Below are positions 26,063 to 37,877 of a DNA stretch of 37,877 nucleotides, piece by piece. Position 1 is the stretch's first letter. Each line of letters begins with the position of its first letter. Source of the DNA: a virus; the IMG/VR virus record IMGVR_UViG_3300044522_000246, positions 1-37,877 of that record, one strand, 5' to 3'. Under the pieces are notes generated by a model. It made no database searches. It was not told the DNA's origin and saw only the letters and a program-made list of their open reading frames with translations. A program made the position numbers and the translations under genes.

Positions 26063-26423
26063 CGAGCCTCCAGATTGTAATGATGGCACCCGCCGTCTTT
26101 CCTTTCTCCGCAGGTTGAAACGCCCACCGCTCATCCCGCACTTGTCGATCATCCACCCACACCCCGCCGACATCCGTGATCCCGTCCTTCAGGTTCTTAG
26201 AGAAGTTCAAGTCACGGCGGCGGCGGTCAGGCTCTCGGACCAGAACGTACAACCCCAAGTCAACGTCAACAAGAGGCCAGCCACAAATTTTTGCAGATTT
26301 CTTGGCAAGGGTGCCGATCACCAGCTTGGCTTCACGGTACTGATCGGACAGGATGTAGCGGTACTTGAACTTGCGGTTGTCGCTACAGAGGGCGGTCCAC
26401 GGGACGGTAAATGTTAGGATCAA
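25959..26423 (-). CDS. rusA: RusA-like Holliday-junction resolvase
   Basis: A 154-residue protein from a TTG start at 26423-26421 that overlaps the helicase stop (TTGA), with GGAG 6-9 bases upstream; upstream in-frame codons lie inside the helicase gene. Residues 2-10 (ILTFTVPWT) are a typical RusA opening. The active-site region RDLNFSKNLKDGITDVGGVWVDDRQVRDE (D71, K77, D80, D91, D92) fits RusA, which cuts four-way junctions after recombination or during packaging. The last roughly 38 residues look like read-through of the overlapping microprotein's DNA and are atypical for the family. Confidence 0.8.
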   Translation of the reverse strand: MILTFTVPWTALCSDNRKFKYRYILSDQYREAKLVIGTLAKKSAKICGWPLVDVDLGLYVLVREPDRRRRDLNFSKNLKDGITDVGGVWVDDRQVRDERWAFQPAEKGKTAGAIITIWRLDDVDVLGDGCDCRSSDSAGRVLGHKGPKRRRRAG

Positions 26424-28171
26424 TTCCGCTCCTTCCACTTGGGGATCATCGGACCATGCTTTTCTTCCTGCTCCTTGATACTCGGTGTCCGCTGCGTCAA
26501 CCGTAGGGTGCGGAAGTCCCACTGCACGGGGATGTCACATGACCCACCCACGCGGTTCTTATCCACGATCAACCATGTGTCTGCAAGGTTCCCGCTGCGG
26601 GTGAAGCGGGAGTGATCGAACAGCAAGACTTGGTGTGAGTCATTCTCAATGGCGCTGCCACCCATCAAGCCCTGACTGATTGGCCGCTCTGCTCTGTTGG
26701 CGCTGGTCTGTCGGTTGAACTGCGAGAGCGTCACCATGCGGACGTTAAGCGTCTGTGCCAACTCCCTCAACTCATGCGAGACGTGTTCGATGCGGTCGTG
26801 GATGTTGTTCATGTTCGACACGCTGGCGAGTTGGATGTAGTCCATGATGAAATACTTGGACCCACTCACCTCGGCGTGATGCTTAATGCAGGCCGACACA
26901 TCAGACATCTTTGACAGCGGACGACGGTTGACGAGCACATGACCGCCCGTGCGTTCGCGGGTTTCGTTGAGCATCCGTGCCGCTCGGGTGTACACCGCTT
27001 GATCGAACATCGGCCCCTGCTCTAGCAGCGTCACACTCTCGTTGCTGACAACCGACAGCAGCCGTGTTGCCAACTCACTTCGGCCCATCTCCAAGCTGAC
27101 AAACGTCACCGTCTCGCCGTGTTCGATGGCACGGGCGGCAAGGTTGATCCCGATCAGACTCTTACCCGTGCCCGTGTTGGCACCAACCGTAATCAGCCAA
27201 CTCTTTGCCAGCCCCACCCCACCACCGCTAGACCCGCACACACGGTTCCACGCCTCCAGCGGCGTTGGCACGGCATCCACCGGAGCCAACTTCTCCGTCA
27301 GCATCTGATCCAGCGTGTCGCCCGTGATCGAATCAAAGGCGACGGCTGGCGGCTCTGCGCCGATGGGGGTGGTGGTGCTGATGATCCCCTGCCACACCGT
27401 CGCCCAGTCATCGCCATGCGCCTGCACCGACTGATGCAAATCGCACAGGTCTTTCATGGGCTGACCGTGGTGCTTCACATCGCGGAGGATACGGGCCTTG
27501 GGCAACGAGGGAGAGATGGCCGCGACCATCGTCGCTCCCCCTTCGTCAGGCTCCTGCCACACGATGACCTCACGGCCCGACAAGAGGCTGGCATACTCGG
27601 GCTTCCACTGACTCGCACCGGGCAAGCCGACCACCGTGACCCCCCGCTGCCACCCTGCATGGCAGTCACTCTCGCCCTCCACGACCAGCACAGGGCCAGC
27701 AGGGGCAGCGGCCAGTACGTCCTGCCCATACAACGGGGTGCCTTCCCCGTCACGGTCCCAGAACGTCCCTTTTCTGGTGCGGCATTTGGTTCGGATGACG
27801 CTGCCATCAGCACGACGGTACGGCATGGCGACAATCGCATCGCCAAACTTGCCTACCCGTTCGACCACCCCCGCTTTTGCCAGCCCTGCCAGCGACAGCC
27901 CTTTCCGCTCGGCGTACTCCCCCAACGTCAGCCCACTCGACGCCTTCGCGTCGTCAGGCAGGGTGACCCCCAGCACATCAGCTAGTGTCGCCAGCGGTTC
28001 GGTAAACCCACAGGCCGAGCATCCCCACGCATGATCGCCCAGCCACGCCGACGAGGTGCTGTCGTTGTGCCGTACACAGCGGAAGGCTATGGCCTTGCCT
28101 GTCTTCTTTGCATGATGCCCTCCACGGAGTAGGGCGGACTTCAACAGGCCGTGCGCGTCGAGCGAGTTCAC
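26420..28171 (-). CDS. Primase-helicase (T7 gp4-like architecture)
   Basis: A 583-residue fusion. The zinc-finger part has C32, H35, C51 and C54 (FRCVRHND ... WGCSACGF). The TOPRIM primase core has VVEGESD at 163-169 and an acidic WQEPDEGG near 205. The DnaB-type RecA helicase domain has Walker A GANTGTGKS at 330-338, Walker B FIMDYIQLA at 441-449 and SQFNRQ at 483-488. It would prime and unwind DNA at the phage fork. GTG start at 28171 overlapping the previous stop (GTGA). No phage DNA polymerase is seen, so it probably recruits the host replisome. Confidence 0.9.
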   Translation of the reverse strand: MNSLDAHGLLKSALLRGGHHAKKTGKAIAFRCVRHNDSTSSAWLGDHAWGCSACGFTEPLATLADVLGVTLPDDAKASSGLTLGEYAERKGLSLAGLAKAGVVERVGKFGDAIVAMPYRRADGSVIRTKCRTRKGTFWDRDGEGTPLYGQDVLAAAPAGPVLVVEGESDCHAGWQRGVTVVGLPGASQWKPEYASLLSGREVIVWQEPDEGGATMVAAISPSLPKARILRDVKHHGQPMKDLCDLHQSVQAHGDDWATVWQGIISTTTPIGAEPPAVAFDSITGDTLDQMLTEKLAPVDAVPTPLEAWNRVCGSSGGGVGLAKSWLITVGANTGTGKSLIGINLAARAIEHGETVTFVSLEMGRSELATRLLSVVSNESVTLLEQGPMFDQAVYTRAARMLNETRERTGGHVLVNRRPLSKMSDVSACIKHHAEVSGSKYFIMDYIQLASVSNMNNIHDRIEHVSHELRELAQTLNVRMVTLSQFNRQTSANRAERPISQGLMGGSAIENDSHQVLLFDHSRFTRSGNLADTWLIVDKNRVGGSCDIPVQWDFRTLRLTQRTPSIKEQEEKHGPMIPKWKERN

Positions 28172-28725: not shown

Positions 28726-29413
28726 GGGGTTCCCCTGAAAGAAGACGATCAAACTCGGCCACATCCTGCCCAGACCGTGCCCACTCCTCGCGGGTGCGGC
28801 CTTCGACCGTCTTGGCGCAGTACGATTCCCACGATCCGTCCGCATAGAAGCGGTGAAGGGTCTTGATGTACTTGGCGTCCGTCCCTTCTTTCAGGACGTA
28901 GGCGGCGTAGCCGTGTGCTGCCTTGGCGATGTCATCGCAGGACACACCCGCCATGCGAAGTTCGCGATAGGCGACCACGAAGAGCGGATACGGGCTGGGT
29001 ACGTCACGCTTCGGGAAGGCGCTCCAGCAGTACGACATACACTGCGTGTCATCACCCGTTAGGGTATATCGTTCCTTTACTCGTTTGGGTGACTGCACTG
29101 ACGGGGGTGGGGTGACAGTAGTGGCGGGGGTGGGTGACTCCTTGGTCACCCCATCCAGCATCACGTCGTACAGATTCGTGCGCCCAGTCCGCTCGGTCTT
29201 GCGGATGTATCCTGCCCCGATCAGTGCAGCCAGCGACCGCTGCACGGTGCGCTCAGACAGGCTGCTCTCTTTTGCCAGCGTGGCTACGCTTGCCCACACG
29301 TTACCGCCGAGGCGATTCGTATGGGTACCGATGGCGCAGAGGACACGGACGTGGACATCACTCAGGCGAGCATCGGCAACGGCGGCGGCGGGGATGATGC
29401 TTAGGTTTGGCAT
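28715..29413 (-). CDS. Winged-helix replication initiator-like protein
   Basis: A 232-residue protein. Residues 15-85 are a winged helix-turn-helix (RVLCAIGTHTN ... WASVATLAKESSLSERTVQRSLAALIGAGYIRKTERTGRTNLYDV), as in phage O-type and DnaD-type initiators. Residues about 88-110 are a Pro/Thr/Ser linker. The C-terminal roughly 110 residues are helical (DDIAKAAHGYAAYVLKEGTDAKYIKTLHRFYADGSWESY), matching the end of phage replication proteins. The linker DNA contains spaced GGGTGAC boxes that may be its binding sites. It lies upstream of the primase-helicase in the same operon. Confidence 0.75.
   Translation of the reverse strand: MPNLSIIPAAAVADARLSDVHVRVLCAIGTHTNRLGGNVWASVATLAKESSLSERTVQRSLAALIGAGYIRKTERTGRTNLYDVMLDGVTKESPTPATTVTPPPSVQSPKRVKERYTLTGDDTQCMSYCWSAFPKRDVPSPYPLFVVAYRELRMAGVSCDDIAKAAHGYAAYVLKEGTDAKYIKTLHRFYADGSWESYCAKTVEGRTREEWARSGQDVAEFDRLLSGEPHVA
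29077..29151. repeat. GGGTGAC iteron-like cluster inside the initiator gene
   Basis: Direct GGGTGAC boxes start at 29087, 29110 and 29132 (spacing 23 and 22 bp, about two helical turns), with an inverted GTCACCC at 29145-29151. They lie in the codons of the linker between the winged helix and the C-terminal domain. A candidate replication origin, by analogy with the iterons in lambda gene O. Confidence 0.55.
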
Positions 29414-34484: not shown

Positions 34485-35351
34485 TTAGACAGCGATCACG
34501 AAGCCCGAGGTGTCACCCTTAGCGTCACCCTTGGCCCGAAGCCCGAGGACGTAGCCCTTGGCAGAGCGAGGGTCGAGGAAGCGGAAATCGTGAACGTCAG
34601 CGTCGAGAACGATGTGACCGTTCCACTCGGTGGGCAGAGCGCGGCCCTTCTTGGTGGCAAACACTGCCGCCACGTTGCCGCCAGCCTTCAGCACGGCCAT
34701 AGCGGTGAGCTTGGAAGCCAACGTCTCGGCCCGAGAGAAAATCAGCGTGTAGTTCGCAGGGAGACGGCCAGCAAGGAAATCGTTCATCCGCTTCGCCACT
34801 TTCGTGTAATCCCAAAACCGCACTTCGGGAAACGCTTCGAACATGCTGGAAAACATGCGGCCATTCCGAGGGCAGGGAATGCCGAGCCAGTCCAGATCGC
34901 TGGTGCCGTTCGGTCGGAAGGCGGGGATGCCGTCCACCTTGGCAGCGTCCCGAACCAGCTTTTCGATGTCCTCCGAGAGGAGGGCCATGAACAGCGCCTG
35001 ATTCTCGAAGAGCATCAGAGTGCGGCGAAGGCGGCAAACTTGGCAAGCGTTGGTCTTCGTGATCGTCGTGCCGTCTCTGACGACACCCATGCCGCCATGC
35101 CCAGCGAAGGCCAGACAGCCAGCGGTGCAACCCTTGGTCCGAGACCCGCAGACTTCGTACCCTGAAAAGTTGGCTGGTGAGAGGTAAATCAGTGCGGCGA
35201 CAATGGGCCGCCCACCCTCTTCGGCGGGCTTGGCAAGCTTCGGAGAAGACTGTGCCCATGTCACCAAGTTCGTGAATGACTTGCCGAAGATGGCACGGGC
35301 TGCAGTGAGGTCGATACGGCGAGCGGTGCGGCGTTGTGACTTGGTCATCAT
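34485..35351 (-). CDS. DUF7227 / GP88-like Cys-rich protein
   Basis: A 288-residue protein, first in the leftward operon. Cysteines C68, C75, C79, C103 and C106 (VCGSRTKGCTAGCL, NACQVC), followed by RPNGTSDLDW (146-155), FWDYTKVAKRMND, TLIFSRAET and FRFLDPRSAKGYVLGLRAKG, match my recollection of phage DUF7227/GP88-like proteins. Their function is unknown; the Cys cluster suggests a metal or iron-sulphur site. The start is ATG 35351 (or the adjacent ATG 35348). A longer frame would run through a repeat array and is less likely. Confidence 0.75.
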   Translation of the reverse strand: MMTKSQRRTARRIDLTAARAIFGKSFTNLVTWAQSSPKLAKPAEEGGRPIVAALIYLSPANFSGYEVCGSRTKGCTAGCLAFAGHGGMGVVRDGTTITKTNACQVCRLRRTLMLFENQALFMALLSEDIEKLVRDAAKVDGIPAFRPNGTSDLDWLGIPCPRNGRMFSSMFEAFPEVRFWDYTKVAKRMNDFLAGRLPANYTLIFSRAETLASKLTAMAVLKAGGNVAAVFATKKGRALPTEWNGHIVLDADVHDFRFLDPRSAKGYVLGLRAKGDAKGDTSGFVIAV

Positions 35352-35370
35352 GGCGGGGATTCTCGGTAGA

Positions 35371-35432
35371 GTGAGTCGTACAGTGAGCGGTACAGTGAGC
35401 GATACAGCGAAGGCTGCAGAGTGAGCGATACA
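35371..35432. repeat. 12-bp direct repeat array
   Basis: Units GTGAGTCGTACA, GTGAGCGGTACA and GTGAGCGATACA lie head to tail at 35371-35406, then a degenerate unit, and GTGAGCGATACA again at 35421-35432. It lies directly upstream of the DUF7227 start, fitting operator repeats or origin iterons. Confidence 0.75.
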
Positions 35433-35862
35433 GGAAACGTCAGTTGTCAAAGAGCCGACAGCGCCATGCGCTGGGTAGAATCCGTCGTGCTTCCGAGTGG
35501 CGGCGACTTCACGTCGTGCGCTTCGTTGCATCGTTCCGGCCTACCCAATCAATATCGCTTGATGGCTTTGCCGTGTCAAGTGCTGCCCAGAGATTGATCT
35601 GGTTTCCCTCTGTCAGTCTCTGTGGCGAGAGGCTGGCGAACGGGGATCGGGTTGGGATGCGGGGTGGGATGTGCGCTGCAGGGTGGTCACTGTCGGCCCG
35701 CCCATGCGCGTTCCAAGTAGAGGGCGCAGACAGCTTGACACTCTGCCGCTGCAGCAAGTGACAGCGCCACTCGCCGCGAGTGGCAGAGTGGCAGCGTGAC
35801 GGCGGCAGCGTGTCGGCTCAGAGTGAGCGGCAGAGGGCGGCGTAGAGGGAGAGAACGGGCGC

Positions 35863-35990: not shown

Positions 35991-36020
35991 ACGAGATCAC
36001 GCGAGATCACGCGAGATCAA
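35991..36020. repeat. Three 10-bp tandem GATC repeats
   Basis: ACGAGATCAC, GCGAGATCAC and GCGAGATCAA, exactly one helical turn apart, in the leader of terS. A candidate terminase-recognition or operator site. Confidence 0.7.
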
Positions 36021-36040: not shown

Positions 36041-36571
36041 GTGTCAAAGACAGCGATAGCGAGTGGGGCAGACCGACAGCGGCGGGAAGAAATCGTGGAA
36101 GCCGTGCTGAGTGGGATGGCGGATGGCAAAACGCTGCAGGAAACGATCAAGGAAGTGGCACGGGCACGGGGAGAAGTGATTCGGCCCGGATCGGTACGGA
36201 TGTGGATTACGCTGGATGAAGCGTGGTATCTGCGCTATCAAAAAACAAAAGCCCTATTAGGGCAGGCATTGGCAGAGGAAGCCATTGTGGTGGCACGGGA
36301 AAGCACGTCGAGTACGACAGCGATGGATCGGGTGCTGATTGATACGTTGAAGTGGGCAGCATCAAAGGCCAACCCACTGGAGTATGGGGAGAAGCAGACC
36401 GTAGAGCATCAGGGCACACAAACGCTACAGGTGAAGGTTGTGGAAGATGATGCGCCAGTACGGAATGAGAAGGCGCTGAAGAATGTGATGGTAGCGGCGA
36501 CCGTCACGTCTACCTTAGCGGTGGGAGCAGGGGTAGCAGGGGGTGACTGGAGTGACGGGGGTAGTAGGTAG
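36041..36571 (+). CDS. terS: Terminase small subunit
   Basis: A 176-residue protein from GTG 36041, with GGAGG 6-10 bases upstream. The N-terminal helix-turn-helix-like part (REEIVEAVLSGMADGKTLQETIKEVARARGEVIRPGSVRMWITLDEAWYLRYQKTKALLGQALAEEAIVVA) and the segment DTLKWAASKANPLEYGEKQTVEHQG are typical of phage small terminases. It recognises the packaging site and brings the large subunit. The C-terminus is Gly/Ala/Val-rich. It lies directly upstream of terL. Confidence 0.85.
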   Translation: MSKTAIASGADRQRREEIVEAVLSGMADGKTLQETIKEVARARGEVIRPGSVRMWITLDEAWYLRYQKTKALLGQALAEEAIVVARESTSSTTAMDRVLIDTLKWAASKANPLEYGEKQTVEHQGTQTLQVKVVEDDAPVRNEKALKNVMVAATVTSTLAVGAGVAGGDWSDGGSR

Positions 36572-36694
36572 GGGGGTGACTACGCAGTCACCCTAACGAG
36601 TAACAGCAACAGCTCTTTTATTAGTAACAGAGAAACAGAGTAACTGAGTAACTGAGTAACTAAGGAACTAGTACACTAGGTAACTAGAGAGACT
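36572..36694. other. terS-terL intergenic segment
   Basis: 123 bases. A perfect 8-bp inverted repeat GGGTGACT/AGTCACCC at 36574-36593 (4-base loop, no U-tract) overlaps a 20-bp block also found inside the initiator gene. An AT-rich 8-bp repeat array then runs to the terL ATG. No clear Shine-Dalgarno for terL. Confidence 0.75.
36623..36694 (+). repeat. Nine-unit 8-bp repeat array before terL
   Basis: Units in order: AGTAACAG, AGAAACAG, AGTAACTG, AGTAACTG, AGTAACTA, AGGAACTA, GTACACTA, GGTAACTA, GAGAGACT. The array runs without gaps from 36623 to the base before the start codon. Consensus AGTAACTN. Confidence 0.85.
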
Positions 36695-37877
36695 ATGGCA
36701 TCGGTTCGTGGAAAGCATAGACATGGCGCTTCATCCGCTGGGGAGGTGGAAGTCCGCCTCCACAGACGGCATCCGGGGCAGGTGGCTATTGCCACACACC
36801 CTGCCAGATTCCGGGTGGTGATGTGTGGACGGCGGTGGGGGAAGTCGGCCTGTGGCATCCGAGAAGCCAGCGATGTAGCAATTGCAGGACAGCCTGTGGG
36901 GTGGTTTGCGCCGTCCTATAAGCTGGCGCTAGAAGCGTGGCGGGAGCTGGTAGACCGTCTGGCCCCTATCACGGCCCGCATGAACGAGCAGGATAAGCGG
37001 CTAGAATTGGTGACGGGCGGGATTATTGAGGTGTGGACGCTGGACACCCCCGATCCGGCCCGAGGTCGTAAATATGCGCTGGTGGTGATCGACGAGGCGG
37101 GTATTACGCGGGATTTGCTGGAAGTCTGGCAGTCTGCGATCCGCCCCACACTGGTTGACCTGAAGGGTCGGGCGCTAATCTTGGGCACCCCAAAGGGCCG
37201 GAGACATGGGTTTGTCGTGTTATTCAACCGTGGGTTAGGCGAAGACCCCGATTGGGCATCCTTCCGTGCCTCAACGCTAGAAAACCCGTACATCCCCGCC
37301 GAAGAGGTGGAAGCCGCCCGTCGAGAGCTGCCGCCCGAAGTGTTTGCCCAAGAATTTGAAGGCATCCCGACCGACGATGGCGCAAATCCCTTTGGCTTGG
37401 AAGCCATCCGTGCCAGCCTTGGCCCGCTCTCGGACCAGCCCGTCGTGGTCTACGGCGTCGATTTGGCCCGAAGCATGGACTTCACCGTGCTGGTGGGGTT
37501 TGACGCCTACCGCAGAGTGGCCTTTCTGGACCGCTGGCAGGCTCCGTGGGCCACGACAAAGGCACGGATAAGGGGTAGGGTAGGGGACACGCCCGTTGTG
37601 GCGGACGCGACGGGGGTTGGCGATGCGATTGTGGCCGATCTGCAAGTCATGGGGGTCAACGTTACGCCCCATGTGTTTACGCAGTCCTCCAAGCTCCGCC
37701 TCATGCAACGCATGGTGGCCGCGTTTCAAGGCAAAGAACTCACCCTGCCCGATTCAGAAGACGCCCGATGGCTGACCTCCGAGATGGAAGCCTTTGAGTT
37801 TACCTACACGGCGACAGGCGTCCGATACGAAGCCCCGTCTGGGTTCCACGATGACGGTGTGATGGCGGTGGCGCTGG
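36695..37877 (+). CDS. terL: Terminase large subunit (3' end beyond the window)
   Basis: 394 residues are visible. The ATPase domain has Walker A CGRRWGKS at 44-51, Walker B LVVIDEA at 129-135 and coupling motif GTPKG at 164-168. The RNase H-like nuclease has GVDLARS (D256), VVADATG (D304) and the terminal FHDDGVMAVAL (D386, D387). It pumps DNA through the portal and cuts it. ATG 36695 is the first start after an in-frame TAG at 36677. The frame is open at the window's edge; joined to base 1 it would continue in phase to the stop at 276-278. Confidence 0.9.
   Translation, partial: MASVRGKHRHGASSAGEVEVRLHRRHPGQVAIATHPARFRVVMCGRRWGKSACGIREASDVAIAGQPVGWFAPSYKLALEAWRELVDRLAPITARMNEQDKRLELVTGGIIEVWTLDTPDPARGRKYALVVIDEAGITRDLLEVWQSAIRPTLVDLKGRALILGTPKGRRHGFVVLFNRGLGEDPDWASFRASTLENPYIPAEEVEAARRELPPEVFAQEFEGIPTDDGANPFGLEAIRASLGPLSDQPVVVYGVDLARSMDFTVLVGFDAYRRVAFLDRWQAPWATTKARIRGRVGDTPVVADATGVGDAIVADLQVMGVNVTPHVFTQSSKLRLMQRMVAAFQGKELTLPDSEDARWLTSEMEAFEFTYTATGVRYEAPSGFHDDGVMAVAL

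Follow-up and report, generated by a model that had tools for sequence, protein, structure and literature searches.

Short repeats between the terminase genes

The locus described here raises the question of what purpose is served by a run of 8-bp tandem repeats lying between the genes for the small and large terminase subunits of an uncultured phage, known from an IMG/VR record. The array occupies positions 36623..36694 (+ strand) of the window, by which we mean the whole 37,877-nt stretch of DNA analysed, and its 3′ end abuts the terL start codon.

The array is flanked by terminase genes, as was originally predicted. Upstream, terS (36041..36571, + strand) encodes a small terminase subunit of the Sf6 type with an N-terminal helix-turn-helix (HTH) domain (PF20901 Sf6_terminase, E value 3e-13; phrog_1482), and its product matches the Sf6 gene 1 structures 4dyc/3hef (E value 6e-6). 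Downstream, terL (36695..37876, + strand) encodes the large subunit (phrog_2, E value 1e-33) and runs off the end of the window; the nearest solved structures for its product are TerL proteins of the P23-45/G20c type (5m1q, 4zni; E value 6e-11). No close isolate was found, as tblastn searches returned only matches of <60 % identity with TerL and one record with TerS, while the GTDB genomes yielded two distant loci, one in a Rhodobacteraceae MAG (48 %) and one in Sphingobacterium (36 %). Elsewhere, the window encodes an endonuclease VII-like protein (531–980, + strand), a DnaB-type helicase (26420–28171, − strand), a GP88 family protein (34485–35531, − strand) and the small HTH proteins HTH_36 and HTH_17. 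In Sf6 and phage DSL-LC05, which have a related TerS, terS and terL overlap and there is no gap, indicating that the gap and its contents are peculiar to the family of the window.

Tandem Repeats Finder returned a period of 8, 7.9 copies and 80 % matches at 36623–36685. The original prediction of nine 8-bp repeats is borne out insofar as the array is real and far beyond chance, but only seven of the nine units are recognisable: matches to the 7-nt core AGTAACT number 6, 5, 7, 7, 7, 6, 3, 6 and 1 for in-register units 1–9, so units 7 and 9 are degenerate and not AGTAACT-like. CTAG at 36668, 36676 and 36684 carries the 8-bp register through the last third of the array, and an outlying in-register unit, AGTAACAG (36599..36606, + strand), lies 24 bp 5′ of the array, outside the range originally reported. 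Pairs of units in succession with ≤1 mismatch occur three times in the window, all at the array, against 0.01 expected, which excludes a chance origin. The array also has the top period-8 score of the window (44/56; runner-up, 30), is its strongest period-7/8 tract and is AT-rich (GC 0.38 over 36600–36699, compared with 0.60 for the genome). Other tandem repeats are present 5′ of terS, at 35364–35407 and 35992–36019 (12 and 10 bp, respectively), and a 22–23-bp repeat at 29086–29139 contains GGTGACTGCACTGACGGGGG, which resembles the 3′ end of terS.

Beginning 52 nt past the terS stop, the array accounts for 72 nt of the 123-nt terS–terL gap and so does not form the whole terL leader, as had been proposed. 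It is preceded by a palindrome, GGGTGACTACGCAGTCACCC (36574..36593), immediately 3′ of terS. Its last unit, CTAGAGAGACT (36684..36694, + strand), stands directly before the ATG of terL, at the place where relatives carry AGAGGAG or AGGAG (L097, L099, L100 and L103). By this comparison, CTAGAGAGACT probably serves as a weak ribosome-binding site of terL; the Shine-Dalgarno sequence would thus be weak rather than replaced by the repeats.

The array among relatives

A TerL search of viral contigs identified 219 relatives, of which 80 were kept, and a TerS search identified 52. From 53 regions 3′ of terS we retained 23 non-redundant gaps, dropping 30 redundant ones, and compared them with regions 5′ of terS (available for 18 of the 23 loci) and with 69 random genome regions, with 400 dinucleotide-shuffled sequences as the null and P≤0.01 as the threshold for a significant period. 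In a first run, period 8 was significant in 11/23 gaps and period 7 in 7/23, while every other period was significant in 1–5 gaps, the largest of these being period 14, i.e. twice 7; a second run gave 10 and 5 of the 23 gaps for periods 8 and 7, respectively. Period 7 or 8 was thus significant in 14–15 of the 23 gaps, compared with 2/18 regions 5′ of terS and 3/69 random regions. In the second run, periods 9–13 were significant in 8/23 gaps, 8/18 upstream regions and 12/69 random regions, so repeats of other short periods do not mark out the gap.

The repeated unit varies considerably. Arrays of AGTAACTG are present in the gaps of L002–L006, AGTAGCT arrays of period 7 (×14 and ×16.6) in L010–L012 and L016, AGTNAACG arrays with mixed 7/8 spacing in L013, L015, L017 and L018, a AACGAGTG array in L023 and a GTTAACGC array in L064, while L097, L101, L103 and L127 have 7-bp units where the window has 8-bp ones. 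Some relatives have no array (L109/L007). Even among near-identical relatives, the gap measures 123 nt (window), 123 nt (L093), 107 nt (L094) and 163 nt (L095), and that of L095 also differs from the window's 5′ of the array. Certain words nevertheless recur: relative to ten long records, CTAGT is enriched 33-fold and AGTTA 26-fold (16/23 gaps), with TAACG also enriched (17/23 gaps). The period had been called unusual and its conservation in relatives had been put forward as a check; the former is half right, since relatives use 7 or 8, as does an unrelated terminase family (see below), and as to the latter, the period class of 7–8 is kept while the exact period is not. Because relatives keep a run of 7- or 8-letter repeats while the letters change, the array probably acts as a signal in the DNA, and packaging might be what it starts.

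The same drift would be expected if the gap were a spacer free of constraint, where replication slippage produces tandem copies that become homogenised and are lost, with no sequence-specific function. Copy number and unit change fast while the flanking proteins hardly change, and the arrayless relatives fit as well. We regard this explanation as somewhat doubtful, given that periods 7 and 8 are preferred over all others in the gaps but not 5′ of terS, and that units of differing sequence share recurrent words and TA steps.

Position relative to terS and terL

Several relatives have genes between terS and terL, and these separate the two possible associations of the array. L021 and L022 carry an AGTTACT array of period 7 (at 914–975 and 940–992) ~0.2 kb past terS and just 5′ of a tRNA-Met (1011–1082), with terL beginning at 2501, ~1.5 kb further on. 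Similarly, L027, L028 and L032 have a AGTTAACG array at 720–752 and a tRNA-Met at 861–932, with terL 1.75 kb away. The comparison places the array in the 3′ flank of terS and not in the leader of terL. A tRNA-Met (cat) lies between terS and terL in L021, L022, L027, L028, L029, L032, L035, L037, L038, L041, L043, L067, L068 and L111. In L014, L019, L021, L022, L024 and others, the gene immediately 5′ of terL, the end of which overlaps the terL start, has an HExxH-like motif, as judged by eye.

That the array stays near terS despite the intervening tRNA-Met or genes argues against control of terL translation, the other function originally suggested, and contradicts it as a general role. Control at the RNA level would suit the window and those relatives in which terL directly follows terS, where the start codon directly follows the array and the last unit of the array would be the ribosome-binding site; in the five relatives above, however, the array does not stay with the terL start codon but precedes the tRNA. 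Leader RNA folding, moreover, showed no structure beyond the palindrome when compared with shuffles (z −0.26). We therefore consider translational control very unlikely.

Relationship between the array and TerS

If the array were a specific TerS site, its sequence should follow the HTH domain of TerS. Between the window and L095/L096, the N-terminal HTH half of TerS has been swapped (54 % of positions differ), while the C-terminal part of TerS differs by 3 % and the N-terminus of TerL by 0 %; despite this domain swap, the arrays of the window and L095 are nearly the same. An unchanged array after a TerS domain swap, together with variable copy number, argues against a precise TerS site. Conversely, L097 and L103 have a similar TerS HTH half (20 % different) and both carry AGTAGCT arrays, which speaks for a link between TerS and array. 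Across 15 gaps, array distances correlated to a like degree with distances of the HTH domain (r 0.44), the TerS C-terminal part (r 0.43) and TerL (r 0.42), and once linkage was allowed for, the correlation with the HTH domain fell to a partial r of 0.15 (P 0.105). Coevolution of TerS and array is thus unsupported, as array type does not track the HTH domain beyond linkage.

Of the proposal that the repeats are a terminase binding site, the part that makes them a cis element linked to terminase is reasonable, while specific recognition of the octamer by TerS is unsupported. The former rests on the recurrence of the array 3′ of terS and on 7/8-bp arrays elsewhere gathering 5′ of TerL. Passages of three papers describe TerS of pac phages as binding weakly and with no sequence preference in vitro (PMC4737164, PMC9611059, PMC7672466); with such weak and unspecific binding, the domain-swap result does not exclude a packaging role.

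Duplex stability and promoter-like elements in the gap

By nearest-neighbour energy, for which values of general background knowledge were used, no other 72-bp place in the window, or in records G001 and G008, is as unstable as the array, and the least stable place of G003 overlaps its array. The gap ranks 5–7 for instability in G002, G004, G005 and G006 and shows no notable unstable tract in G012 and G013. These ten long records were picked for length or as close relatives and are not a random sample, and the stability reading concerns the window's family as distinct from the second array-bearing family. TA-dense stretches (≥3× the genome mean) were found in 21/23 gaps, compared with 6/18 upstream regions and 105/460 random segments.

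An easily opened tract of tandem repeats in a genome with a DnaB-type helicase is reminiscent of replication-origin iterons or a DNA-unwinding element. The low stability of the array, unmatched elsewhere in three of the ten records, speaks for such a role. The helicase and replication genes of the window, however, lie at 26–29 kb, away from the array, no conserved initiator site was seen and an 8-bp spacing misfits the helical turn, making an origin extremely unlikely.

The gaps also have promoter-like content. A GTGAC..GTCAC palindrome is present in 9/23 non-redundant gaps and a TTGACA-N17-like promoter element in 8/23, one of these lying within terL. In the palindromes of the form GGGTGAC..GTCACCC, the inner arms vary yet stay complementary, and CACCC[TA]AACG[AG]TA then follows (9/23 gaps). 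The array could accordingly be read as a set of sites for a phage DNA-binding protein, placed just 3′ of a late-operon promoter in the gap, that would control terL, the tRNA and the late genes. The strongest argument for this possible reading is that gaps hold either the palindrome with CACCC[TA]AACG[AG]TA or the promoter-like element; further support comes from the self-complementarity of AGTNACT and GTTAAC, from the recurrence of the GT-rich words noted above (AGTTA and TAACG), and from the small HTH proteins HTH_36 and HTH_17 encoded in the window. Against it, the gap of the window itself yielded no sigma-70-like promoter, no ribbon-helix-helix protein was detected in the subset of 27 window ORFs scanned against Pfam (E value ≤0.01), and relatives whose TerL is near-identical have entirely different units.

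Short-period arrays at other terminase loci

Of the AGTNACT-type arrays in other viral contigs, 23/31 were located no more than 4 kb 5′ of TerL, against 8.1 expected under uniform placement. A reversed control pattern gave a like bias (14/23 against 4.4 expected), so the location is not motif-specific, and a specific link between AGTNACT and terminase was dropped. On these counts, a TerL-proximal location goes with short-period arrays as such, or with non-coding space, and not with this motif. The counts are limited to contigs with a phrog_2 match at E≤1e-7 (31/74 array and 23/48 control records) and include homologous contigs such as the L288–L290 group; any phrog_2 match would give 36 array records (five weak ones dropped) and 25 control records (two dropped). 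The similar placement of the control octamer arrays also suits a slippage origin. One contig, L172, seems to belong, as a distant member, to the family of the window.

In an unrelated TerL family, 7/8-bp arrays lie exactly at the terS–terL junction in 3/8 non-redundant loci (L288, L291 and L299). The units of this family are CCAATGAC, ACCAATG and ACTAATG, and the arrays end at the terL start codon; as these units contain ATGA, the sequences suggest that the arrays arose from a stop–start overlap. In family C, another TerL family that was sampled regardless of arrays, an 8-bp array was found in 1/65 loci, this being the query's own contig, and a general association of arrays with terminase loci was rejected. 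The junction-array comparison took in 44/80, 13/15 and 79/80 loci. Within a limited literature set and choice of terms, we found no paper describing heptamer or octamer arrays in a terS–terL gap.

Putative role of the array

Our preferred reading, to which we assign a probability of roughly 0.38, is that the array may be a loosely specified, pac-like cis element for terminase loading and the start of concatemer packaging. It would act as a flexible, easily opened, multi-site landing stretch in the terS–terL gap, where terminase would be loaded and packaging of the concatemer initiated; the exact octamer would count for less than the numerous weak contacts made by a TerS ring, or than the ease with which TA-rich repeats bend and open. 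That terminase is the user of the array and that packaging starts there are the parts of this explanation that we infer. A packaging start is favoured because the array remains associated with terS and retains its rhythm and weakness but not its letters, and because gapless Sf6, with its related TerS, shows the gap to be an addition. It is supported by the frequency of period-7/8 repeats and TA-dense stretches in the gaps and by the three junction arrays of the unrelated family. Variable copy number, arrayless relatives, the records whose gap has no unstable tract (G012 and G013), the failure of array type to follow the TerS HTH domain, the single array in family C and the position of P22 pac inside terS count against it. 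In addition, arrays may crowd 5′ of TerL simply because phages have non-coding DNA there. An operator array or a slippage by-product is nearly as likely as a packaging-start region.

A further reading, which we consider rather unlikely, is that the array is read by a physical property or rhythm: TA steps every 7–8 bp would be kept while slippage rewrites the letters, and a like array would have arisen independently in the second terminase family. Selection would then maintain, next to terS, the weakest and most flexible tract that the genome has.

How TerS of pac phages finds its own genome is an open question, since passages of PMC9611059 report that the purified protein has little sequence specificity in vitro. 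If the array is a packaging site in which a 7–8-bp rhythm and a weak duplex persist while the letters change, recognition by shape or flexibility would be a natural fit, and the relatives, including the natural TerS-domain swap, would be ready-made variants for testing such recognition. Should the array instead be an operator or a by-product of slippage, the comparison would still show that the gap changes far more quickly than the genes on either side of it.

Comparison with known systems

Contiguous short direct repeats are known from the operators and centromeres of omega, the small ribbon-helix-helix protein of pSM19035, which binds contiguous 7-bp direct repeats in number. The window array recalls these heptads, although its units are of 8 bp (7-bp units being seen in some relatives) and of a different sequence; omega heptads appear in a reference title in PMC5016525. 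The junction arrays of L288, L291 and L299 occupy the same place as the window array, with a period of 7 or 8 and a unit that differs between close relatives, although the TerL family is unrelated.

For packaging, lambda, P22 and SPP1 are the reference systems. Contigs of near-full length start at scattered places relative to terS, a pattern that circularly permuted (headful) genomes could give but that cell-associated concatemers would give as well, and contig edges number 35 within 2.45 kb 5′ of TerL compared with 17 on the 3′ side (79 of 80 loci). In the passages concerned, P22 pac is described as a 22-bp sequence inside terS (PMC9611059) and SPP1 pac as containing sets of direct repeats (PMC4737164). 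A P22-like pac core, with the search sequence taken from an excerpt of PMC11447400, was absent from 36041–36694 at ≤3 mismatches (18 matches in the window against 11 expected). Like the pac sites of the headful phages P22 and SPP1/SF6, and of Sf6 by TerS homology, the window array lies beside terS, and this position is retained in relatives with a tRNA insert. It differs from them in being a contiguous 7/8-bp array whose unit drifts, and in its placement in non-coding DNA on the 3′ side of terS.
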